This document shows positions 50,908 to 64,000 of a DNA stretch of 64,000 nt, piece by piece. The number at the start of each line of letters is the position of its first letter. The first letter of the stretch is position 1. The notes beneath the pieces are model-generated. The model had not been told where the DNA came from and searched no databases. It saw only the letters and a program-made list of their open reading frames with translations. Origin of the DNA: Actinobacteria bacterium IMCC26077 (GTDB taxonomy: Bacteria; Actinomycetota; Actinomycetes; Nanopelagicales; Nanopelagicaceae); the NCBI GenBank assembly GCA_002284915.1, contig CP015606.1, positions 558,001 to 622,000 on the forward strand, read 5' to 3'. The position numbers were made by a program, and so were the translations under genes.

Positions 50908-51351
50908 ATGCGTCGCAGCCTCGATTGTGCCAGTGAAGTCGAAACGGCTCACATTGCCAGAGCGCTGGCGGCAAACCTTCGCGCGGGCGACCTACTCTTA
51001 CTTGAGGGGCCACTCGGCGCTGGTAAGACTTTCTTTACCCAAGCGTTGATTAAATCGCTGGGAGTTAGCGAACAGGTGACCTCACCTACCTTTGTGATTG
51101 TGAAGAGCTATCAAGGAGCGCTCCCGATTCACCACATAGATGCTTATCGGCTGCTAGATGCTCCAGATCCGCGCCAAGCATTCGACGAGCTCGATATTGA
51201 TGTTGAAGGTTCTGTAACGATTGTGGAATGGGGTAAGAACTTCGATCTCACCGGGAGTGCGTTGCATATCGAAATTGAAATCGGGCCTGGGCAATCTCGA
51301 ACGCTCACGCTAGAAGGTCCTGATGCTCGCTGGGGTGATCTGCAGGTATGA
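50908..51351 (+). CDS. tsaE: tRNA threonylcarbamoyladenosine biosynthesis ATPase TsaE
   Basis: TsaE is the ATPase that resets the TsaB-TsaD complex during t6A37 modification of ANN-decoding tRNAs. The 147-residue protein has the P-loop GPLGAGKTFFTQ near residue 34, SPTFVIVKSYQG and the HIDAYRL motif. ATG 50908 is the first plausible start after the palindrome. It overlaps the tsaB-rimI gene by four bases, and the whole set tsaE-tsaB/rimI-tsaD is consecutively overlapping. Confidence 0.95.
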   Translation: MRRSLDCASEVETAHIARALAANLRAGDLLLLEGPLGAGKTFFTQALIKSLGVSEQVTSPTFVIVKSYQGALPIHHIDAYRLLDAPDPRQAFDELDIDVEGSVTIVEWGKNFDLTGSALHIEIEIGPGQSRTLTLEGPDARWGDLQV

Positions 51352-52370
51352 AACGCGCGCTCACGATTGATACTTCAACCTCGAAGACAACAGTAGGAGT
51401 TGTCGAAAATGGCGTAGTCATCTGGACGGATTCCGTTGAAGGTGCCACATCACATGGCGGTGCGCTGGGCGCGCTCATCGAACGCGCTCAAGGTCTAGAT
51501 GTTGTCGATCATGTCATTGTTGGTATGGGGCCAGGCCCGTTCACCGGGCTGCGAGTGGGCATCATCTTTGCCCAAGGTTTCGCTAAAGCGCGAAATCTGC
51601 CATGCATTGGAGTGGTCTCACTTGATGCGATTGCCCAATCAGTCGAGCTACACAGCGAGAACGTCATCTCTATCGACGCGCGGAGAAAAGAGCGGTACTG
51701 GGCGCGATACGAAGCTACCGGCGAGCGAATCTCTGAGATAGCGGTATCAAAAATTGACGAGGTACCTTCAGGAATTTCTGACCAACATCCAACGCCACTA
51801 GGTCTAGCAAAAGCTGCGAATAATCCGCGCTCGATTAGGCAAACTCCGATCTATTTGCGGAAACCAGATGCTGCGCTCGCCCCCTTATCTGGAGTTACCC
51901 TTCGAGAGCTACGTTTCTTTGACTTGGGTGAGATTCTTGGCATCGAACGCGAGTTGTTTCCAGATCCTTGGTCGCTAGCACAATTCAAAGAAGAGTTAAG
52001 TTTCTCGCCTCGCTCCAGATATTACGTAGTAGCCGAAGATCGAAGCGGTGCAGTCCCACGTATTCTTGGATATGCCGGAATTGCTTTTACTGGTCATGGC
52101 GAACCAGTTGATATTCACACTCTCGGGGTTACCAAAGAGCATCAAGGTCGTGGATTAGGTCAGAGGCTTCTCGACCATCTCATCGACAAGGCGAAGGAGC
52201 TTCATGGTTCGAGCATCTTGCTTGAGGTGCGCGATGGAAATGAGCCTGCGCGAGCTCTCTATGCAAAGAATGGTTTTACTGAAATCTCCCGAAGAGTCGG
52301 TTATTACGCGCGTTTTGGCGATGCGCTTGTCATGGAGAAACCTTTGGAATATTCCGGAGGTGATCGATGA
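51348..52370 (+). CDS. tsaB-rimI: TsaB-RimI fusion protein
   Basis: One uninterrupted frame of 340 residues contains two proteins usually coded by adjacent genes. Residues 1-178 are Tsa[15 protein letters not shown], the [13 protein letters not shown] motif near 59, and YLRKPDA at 169-175, where TsaB normally ends. Residues 183-340 are a GNAT acetyltransferase like Rim[25 protein letters not shown] and the acetyl-CoA loop HQGRGLG (265-271). TsaB partners TsaD in t6A synthesis; RimI acetylates the N-terminus of S18. The stop overlaps tsaD. The ORF contains no stop or frame break at the junction. Confidence 0.94.
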
Positions 52371-53901: not shown

Positions 53902-55539
<1,638 letters not shown>

Positions 55540-55624: not shown

Positions 55625-55915
55625 TCACATCGCAAGTCGATTGGAGCGCGAGATGAGCTCAGCGCGCTCATCTTCGGAGAGGCCACCCCAGATGCCATAT
55701 GGCTCTTGGACGGCGAGCGCATGCTCACGGCATTGCGCGAGTACTGGGCAGGAGGCACAGATTGCCTTCGCTTCGACGATCCGCTTTCGGCGGCTCGGTC
55801 CACGCTCGCCCTCAGGATGAAAGAACATCTCTGCGGGGTAGTTTCGGCAGGCACCTTCGAATTGCCACTCCCAATTGCTGGCAGTTGGCATCGGTAGCCT
55901 TGATATCTCAGCCAT
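55625..55915 (-). CDS. whiB: WhiB-family iron-sulfur transcriptional regulator
   Basis: WhiB proteins are found only in actinobacteria and their phages; they bind a [4Fe-4S] cluster and the sigma factor. The 96-residue protein has four cluster cysteines, Cys23, Cys53, Cys56 and Cys62, then the GIWGG turn and a basic end. ATG 55915 with AAGGTGAG upstream is preferred over GTG 55921, which is too close to that sequence. The location beside groEL and near guaB matches that of whiB3 in mycobacteria, but sequence alone does not prove it is WhiB3. It is divergent from a MerR/B12 gene. Confidence 0.93.
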   Translation of the reverse strand: MAEISRLPMPTASNWEWQFEGACRNYPAEMFFHPEGERGPSRRKRIVEAKAICASCPVLAQCREHALAVQEPYGIWGGLSEDERAELISRSNRLAM

Positions 55916-55942
55916 TTCCACTCACCTTTTCCTTTGCTTTCG

Positions 55943-55953
55943 GGTAGGCTACC
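55943..55953. promoter_or_regulatory. Palindrome in the whiB-merR divergent region
   Basis: GGTAG-G-CTACC lies 28 bases upstream of the whiB start and 69 bases upstream of the MerR-type gene. Its size and position fit a regulator operator, for either neighbour. TAGGCT within it may also be a -10 box for plus-strand transcription. The rest of the 106-base region has no obvious features. Confidence 0.4.
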
Positions 55954-56021
55954 AATCGCGCCATAAGTTGTTCAAGTACCTAGAGCGGTTCGGGAGTGAA
56001 TTCTTCCTGAGAGGGGGATGG

Positions 56022-56903
56022 GTGGAGGCTCAACGCGGGGTGACTGTCGCGGAGGTGGCCCACCGCCTCGGCGTAGCGCCAGCGACCCTCCGGACCTGGG
56101 ATCGCCGCTATGGCCTTGGCCCCACAACACATGAGGCGGGCGCACACCGTCGTTATAGCGACGAGGATCTTGCTCGGCTAGCCACGATGCGGCGCCTAGT
56201 TGTCTCCGGAGTCCCGCCCCAGCAAGCAGCCCAGTTGGCTAAGAGCGCTCCTGTCTCGATTGATGAGCCGCTCCCGCTACCCAAGTTCCAAGATCGCGAA
56301 GATGTCGTCGTAGCAATCGTCCGCGCACTCGATGGAATTGATAGCGGTTTTGTAGAAGCGCTCATTCGCCGTGAAATCCTCTCAGCCGGAATTATCAAGA
56401 CGTGGAATGAGATTTTGGTACCAGCCTTGGTGCTCGTTGGTAAACGGTGGGAAGAGAGCGGTTCTGGCATTGAGGTAGAGCACCTCTTTTCAGAAATCGT
56501 CAAACGAATCATGCGCGAGTGCGCCAATGAGATTGAATCACCGCGAAATCCCAAGCCAGTACTACTTGCAAGTATCGGCGAGGAGCACCATTGCTTAGCA
56601 ATTCACGCGCTCGCAGCTGCGCTCGCGGAAGAGAACATCGCTACTCACTTTCTTGGCGCTCGAACGCCCGTATCGGCGCTCTCCGAAATGGTGCGCAAAA
56701 CCCATCCACCCGTTGTCTTTCTCTGGGCCCAGTTGGCAAAGAATGCCGATTACTCTGCGATGAGCGCGCTGCCTGCGCTCCGCCCGGCGCCGCGTCTGAT
56801 TCTCGGTGGACCAGGGTGGGAGCCATCTCAAGTAACGGGGGCGAGCCTGGTTGAGACGCTCTTCGAGGCATGCGAATTGGTCGGCTCGACGATCGGAAAG
56901 TAA
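56022..56903 (+). CDS. MerR-family regulator with B12-binding domain (CarH-like)
   Basis: Residues 5-75 are a MerR helix-turn-helix (VTVAEVAHRLGVAPATLRTWDRRYGL and RRYSDEDLARL). The rest matches the four-helix plus Rossmann-like cobalamin-binding module: W143-X9-E153-H154 corresponds to the Trp, Glu and His around the upper face of adenosylcobalamin in CarH, and G186-E-E-H189 matches the loop with the lower-ligand His, although the following Gly is Leu here. CarH-type proteins repress carotenoid genes in the dark and release DNA in light. GTG 56022 has GAGGGGGA upstream; the 49 extra residues of the longer frame are not MerR-like. Light sensing is inference. Confidence 0.85.
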   Translation: MEAQRGVTVAEVAHRLGVAPATLRTWDRRYGLGPTTHEAGAHRRYSDEDLARLATMRRLVVSGVPPQQAAQLAKSAPVSIDEPLPLPKFQDREDVVVAIVRALDGIDSGFVEALIRREILSAGIIKTWNEILVPALVLVGKRWEESGSGIEVEHLFSEIVKRIMRECANEIESPRNPKPVLLASIGEEHHCLAIHALAAALAEENIATHFLGARTPVSALSEMVRKTHPPVVFLWAQLAKNADYSAMSALPALRPAPRLILGGPGWEPSQVTGASLVETLFEACELVGSTIGK

Positions 56904-58067
<1,164 letters not shown>

Positions 58068-63775: not shown

Positions 63776-64000
63776 ATGGGAAAGCGACCGATCCGAGTGG
63801 TAGTTGCGAAAGCTGGCCTTGACGGCCACGATCGTGGCGCCAAAGTAGTCGCACGTACCCTTCGCGATGCCGGATGTGAGGTGATCTACACCGGCCTACA
63901 TCAAAGCCCTGAAGAGATCGTCACAACAGCTATTCAGGAAGATGCTGATGCGATTGGCCTCTCAATTCTCTCCGGTGCACACCTGACCCTCTTTAAGCGC
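63776..64000 (+). CDS. Cobalamin B12-binding domain protein, N-terminal part (mutase small subunit type)
   Basis: Only the first 75 codons lie in the window; the frame is open to the last base. The sequence begins [20 protein letters not shown], with the base-off cobalamin motif Asp-X-His-X-X-Gly (GLDGHDRG), and continues as the Rossmann fold of methylmalonyl-CoA mutase-type B12 domains ([11 protein letters not shown]). Stand-alone subunits of this type pair with a catalytic chain in acyl-CoA mutases. The partner is not visible. It starts 64 bases after pcrA; TACCTAT (63751-63757) and TAGCGC may be promoter elements. Confidence 0.88.

Follow-up and report, generated by a model that had tools for sequence, protein, structure and literature searches.

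Conserved pairing of a CarH-like MerR gene with whiB3/whiD in an actinobacterium suggests a dedicated B12-type regulator of a redox protein

WhiB3/WhiD governs redox balance and development across the actinobacteria, and for this reason the control of its expression is of wide interest. In the 64,000-nucleotide stretch of Actinobacteria bacterium IMCC26077 analysed here (the window), a gene for a WhiB-like protein stands back to back with a gene for a MerR-type protein with B12-binding domains, which raises the question of whether, and how, the second controls the first. The earlier note on this DNA had described the two genes as divergent over 106 bp and had suggested that a B12-based light or cobalamin signal could be combined with redox state at one locus. 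ORF coordinates and Pfam domains bear out the divergence over exactly this distance (55916-56021). The source genome comprises 1.55 Mb in one contig, and its relatives are mainly freshwater actinobacteria, e.g. Candidatus Planktophila and Nanopelagicaceae. The features of the locus are collected in the table.

Table. Features of the whiB-merR locus, with coordinates in the window
Feature	Position	Strand	Basis or remark
groEL	53905..55539	+	conserved flank, convergent with whiB
whiB3/whiD ortholog, WhiB-like [4Fe-4S] protein, 96 aa, ATG at 55915	55625..55915	-	Pfam and PDB matches
Palindrome GGTAGGCTACC, from the earlier note	55943..55953		overlaps whiB -10, not conserved
Putative whiB -10 (TAGCCT), 18 bp from -35	55946..55951	-	homologous promoters, sequence reading
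Block R, 25 bp, whiB -35 and spacer, proposed operator, reads ACTTGAACAACTTATGGCGCGATTG	55953..55977	-	aligned intergenic regions
Putative whiB -35 (TTGAAC)	55970..55975	-	TTGAAC in 101 of 102 distinct homologous promoters
MerR-type regulator, CarH-like B12-binding domains, 293 aa, GTG start	56022..56903	+	Pfam, alignment, AlphaFold model
guaB (IMP dehydrogenase)	56952..58067	+	conserved flank, same strand as merR and downstream of it

The WhiB gene call was confirmed by Pfam (Whib, 87.6 bits). Among PDB structures the best match was WhiB3 (E 3e-30) while WhiB1 reached just 3e-15, and the protein was therefore assigned to the WhiB3/WhiD group. WhiD is the ortholog of WhiB3 (PMC4255298), and by sequence the gene in the window is a WhiB3/WhiD ortholog, in the same WhiB subfamily as the proteins of M. 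tuberculosis and Streptomyces. Its translation contains four Cys, the number expected for ligation of the predicted [4Fe-4S] cluster. The gene order at the locus is groEL, whiB, merR, guaB, guaB3 and guaA, all on the plus strand except whiB, with guaA called by reading its sequence. We take the neighbourhood of groEL and guaB to surround whiB3/whiD in M. tuberculosis and Streptomyces as well. The divergent partner there, presumably bldM in Streptomyces and the sigD region in M. tuberculosis, differs from the MerR protein of the window. Two observations on the flanks can be added. The start of guaB at 56952 was placed by a Shine-Dalgarno-like sequence in an ORF opening at 56925, and the encoded protein is short (56925-58067, at most 380 aa) with a split match to the IMP dehydrogenase model, which would fit a loss of the CBS domains. 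On the other side of groEL, the ORF 51348-52370 resembles a TsaB-RimI fusion.

For the divergent gene, the earlier call of a MerR protein with B12-binding domains also holds. Pfam found the MerR domain and B12-binding_2 (32.1 bits, above the cut-off of 23), and a match to B12-binding of 25.4 bits, below its cut-off of 32.1. In the AlphaFold model (pLDDT 88.7), the architecture is that of class I CarH/LitR proteins: a DNA-binding domain (residues ~1-75) is followed by a four-helix bundle (~92-169) and a Rossmann domain (~180-291). The predicted fold is nearest to Thermus CarH; the best 50 Foldseek matches were all Thermus CarH/LitR structures, with a TM of ~0.8 over the B12-binding domain. The NCBIfam CarH model gave 105.7 bits and did not reach its cut-off of 400; matches below this cut-off also occur in 11 out of 14 control genomes and are thus common.

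The signature residues were compared in 156 aligned relatives, a set including some duplicate fetches of one genome. Trp-X9-Glu-His, noted earlier, is present as W143-x9-E153-H154 and strongly conserved (W143 in 150, E153 in 156 and H154 in 155 of the 156 rows). The Glu-X-His motif is present as well, with Glu or Asp at position 188 and His at position 190 in every row. The claim that Leu replaces the Gly after the ligand His had to be corrected, as it had taken H189 for the ligand. Because H190 is invariant and position 189 varies (L, M, Q or H), the ligand His was placed at H190, giving the motif E188-x-H190-x2-A193 with Ala at the Gly position. This position is Ala in 98 and Pro in 56 of the 156 rows. 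A second change, overlooked in the earlier note, affects the signature Ser of SxV/T, which is Trp235 in 152 of 156, and the V/T position is Gln. CarH proteins are defined by Wx9EH plus ExHx2Gx41SxV/Tx22-27GG (PMC8156234). With H190 as ligand, E-x-H, GG and the published x41 and x22-27 spacings are kept (A193, x41, W235, x24, G262-G263), and the departures from the second motif are Gly to Ala/Pro, Ser to Trp and V/T to Gln. From the replacements of Ser and Gly the pocket for the lower tail looks altered; the adenosyl side would be kept and the tail side changed. The His adjoining the signature Trp, upper ligand of CarH in the light-exposed state (PMC8156234), is Glu144 here and Glu, Ala or Gln in the family. 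Out of the light-responsive signature GxxW, EH, GxxH, GxxxP (PMC11796333), GxxW, EH and GxxxP are present, while GxxH is found only via the non-conserved H189.

The Gly and Ser replacements could weaken or abolish cobalamin binding. A MerR-like protein could accordingly regulate whiB without cobalamin, its module serving as a protein-interaction or oligomerisation domain as in CarA or class II LitR. The family-wide replacements and the Pfam B12-binding score below cut-off point in this direction, as does precedent: CarA works independently of B12, and class II LitRs, of which control by a LOV protein has been described (PMC9758184), are taken as non-binders. We nevertheless regard this explanation as rather doubtful, for Wx9EH is nearly and the ligand His fully invariant across very divergent sequences, whereas CarA is without Wx9EH, class II LitRs are without a recognisable Rossmann B12 domain and classes IV and V lack B12 domains (PMC8156234, PMC9758184). 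Other B12 proteins are also encoded in the genome, namely a probable MetH (an ORF of 1262 aa containing a B12-binding domain) and a mutase-type B12 subunit encoded on its own, so that a corrinoid is plausibly present. The latter gene, of the methylmalonyl-CoA mutase small-subunit type, occupies ~63790-64000 of the window and beyond, after a helicase gene and just ahead of a sucC-like gene. The CarH-like fold of the model and the Ado-capping Wx9EH motif support a B12-type ligand, and the protein, although not a CarH by the published definition, probably works like one.

Conservation of the pair, on which the earlier note had made its proposal depend, was found both within and outside the family. 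In more than 100 fetched loci of the same family, whiB and merR are divergent wherever the locus reaches far enough (the contig of L055 ends before whiB, and the WhiB match of L052 is weak, at 40%), nearly always flanked by groEL and guaB where the contig extends to them. In other families of the class the divergent pair is kept in 22 loci. In one genus, represented by three closed genomes, neither merR nor a close WhiB3 ortholog was found, while in seven loci (L180, L182, L187-L190 and L192) merR is located away from whiB. In a FastTree phylogeny most whiB-linked merR copies group together, and unlinked copies fall outside this group or form a side branch. A literature search, with most subscription journals outside its coverage, located no description of a whiB/CarH-like merR pair.

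In the intergenic region, TTGAAC-17/18-TAnnnT was present in 100 of 102 distinct homologous whiB promoters, and the spacer sequence is conserved too. In 49 of the 102, exactly 6 nt separate the -10 from the start codon, which suggests a leaderless whiB mRNA in about half of them; the leader in the window is longer. The palindrome GGTAGGCTACC pointed out in the earlier note is indeed present, once; by chance, no copy would be expected in the window. As an operator it was rejected, being unconserved even within the genus (its counterparts are GCTACGCTACC in L002, GCTAGGCTACC in L004 and GGTAGGCTATC in L005) and overlapping the -10 hexamer.

The conserved element adjoins this palindrome. Alignment of the intergenic regions revealed a common block, ACTTGAACAACYTATGRMRCGRTTG reading toward whiB and including the -35, here named block R. 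A search of the genome with the 19-base core of R, allowing up to three mismatches, gave one exact site, at whiB, and five further near matches (L032-L036), all inside ORFs; a wide regulon was therefore rejected. A separate R-like site opens an MFS transporter ORF in genus g21 (L219 and L220; G040:C13 and G067:C64), possibly a second target or a coding coincidence.

The occurrence of R follows that of the gene pair. R was scored with a weight matrix derived from the family and taken as present above 6 bits. It occurred in 19 of the 22 pairs from other families, in none of five loci with a whiB3-like gene but without merR, and in none of seven loci where merR is not adjacent to whiB. A stricter pattern of the core, run over 247 genomes, was found in 41 of 110 genomes with merR and 0 of 137 without, counts that are not independent given the common ancestry of R-bearing and R-lacking genomes. 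Of the 43 sites, 39 adjoin merR, and a reversed control pattern gave eight matches in all. As R is upstream of none of the seven merR genes not beside whiB, autoregulation of merR through R was rejected, and the absence of R wherever one of the two genes is missing suggests that it serves the control of whiB by the adjacent gene instead. The block is inverted in L135 and extra direct copies occur in many family members, which fits an operator better than promoter sequence alone. The putative role of the MerR protein as a conserved, dedicated regulator of whiB3 is thus well supported by the comparative data.

R contains TACTTGAACAA at the -35, which by eye fits the CarH half-site nAnnTnnACAn (a chance of a few per cent in 25 bp); operators of CarH and CarA overlap and block the -35 (PMC8156234). 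Known CarH operators have a series of 11-bp direct repeats; no such series was seen in R, which holds one half-site only. A second block, TTTCAAGTGGTGAG, lies near merR in relatives and is not recognisable in the genus of the window. Its spacings to R cluster at 21, 31, 42 and 52 (Rayleigh R ~0.68 at 10.5 bp), with 11.5 as best period, the groups 45/55 and 68-70 off the pattern and p-values inflated by shared descent; helical phasing between the two blocks is suggestive only.

R could also be the site of WhiB3 itself, acting with sigma-A region 4, or just a strong primary-sigma promoter, in which case the MerR protein would have its target elsewhere and the linkage would be old synteny. The -35 lies within R, WhiB proteins contact sigma-A region 4 close to the -35, and the groEL-whiB3-guaB synteny is presumably old, judging from M. 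tuberculosis. This explanation appears unlikely, as the whiB3-like promoters are without R in all five genomes lacking merR, conservation extends into the spacer beyond -35 and -10, and R occurs inverted and in extra copies.

The explanation that we consider probable is that the CarH-like MerR protein represses whiB3 through R under the gating of a corrinoid-type ligand. The main conserved task of the 293-aa protein would be control of the neighbouring whiB3/whiD. It would most likely bind R, over the -35 and spacer of a primary-sigma promoter with normal spacing, and block RNA polymerase as CarH does at its own target, so that whiB is repressed. Classical MerR activation uses longer spacers; a normal length of 17-18 bp is better suited to repression by occlusion. 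The C-terminal four-helix and Rossmann module would most likely bind a corrinoid, coordinated from below by H190 and capped at an adenosyl-like upper group by W143, E153 and H154. If this ligand were lost or photolysed, oligomerisation would change and whiB would be freed, and a B12 and/or light signal would thereby set the level of an Fe-S redox/NO regulator. The conservation of a site over the whiB promoter points to a B12-type protein as the on/off switch of a redox regulator, and it is from this promoter architecture that we infer a combination of light or B12 with redox at one locus. Against repression by the MerR protein, R was confined to loci carrying the two genes side by side, and the factor bound there may instead be WhiB or some other protein. 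Binding by the module of another tetrapyrrole (heme, or a corrinoid whose lower base differs or is missing), making the signal redox, gas or heme rather than B12 or light, is improbable: the axial His is kept with bulkier residues in place of those expected for the benzimidazole tail, and SCHIC domains, named for heme replacing cobalamin, are a precedent, but Wx9EH, the adenosyl cap in CarH, is kept and nothing positive points to heme.

More broadly, and as a tentative proposal, the locus could represent an old actinobacterial circuit: a CarH-derived protein, its tail pocket remodelled (Ala/Pro, Trp), would read a corrinoid, possibly light, and gate WhiB3/WhiD transcription through a dedicated operator. 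If a B12-type sensor is the dedicated regulator of WhiB3/WhiD in many lineages, redox regulation would take direct input from cofactor status or light, also in bacteria that are among the most abundant in freshwater. The locus would also offer a naturally occurring CarH variant in which the corrinoid pocket is changed, together with a compact candidate operator, testable in vitro.

Among known systems, class I CarH/LitR of Thermus thermophilus and Myxococcus xanthus shares with the protein of the window the MerR, four-helix and Rossmann B12 domains, Wx9EH and the E-x-H ligand motif, and the proposed operator likewise lies over the -35 of a TTGA-type promoter. The protein of the window differs in its signature, ExHx2(A/P)x41Wx(Q)x24GG, in the replaced light-state His, in the missing repeat series and in its likely target, whiB3 instead of carotenoid genes. 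CarA and the class II-V LitRs belong to the same MerR superfamily, with B12 features missing or degenerate. In AerR-CrtJ a B12-binding photoreceptor is tied to a redox-responsive regulator (PMC6199135); in that system the B12 protein acts by binding to the redox regulator itself, whereas the link within the whiB-merR pair would be transcriptional.
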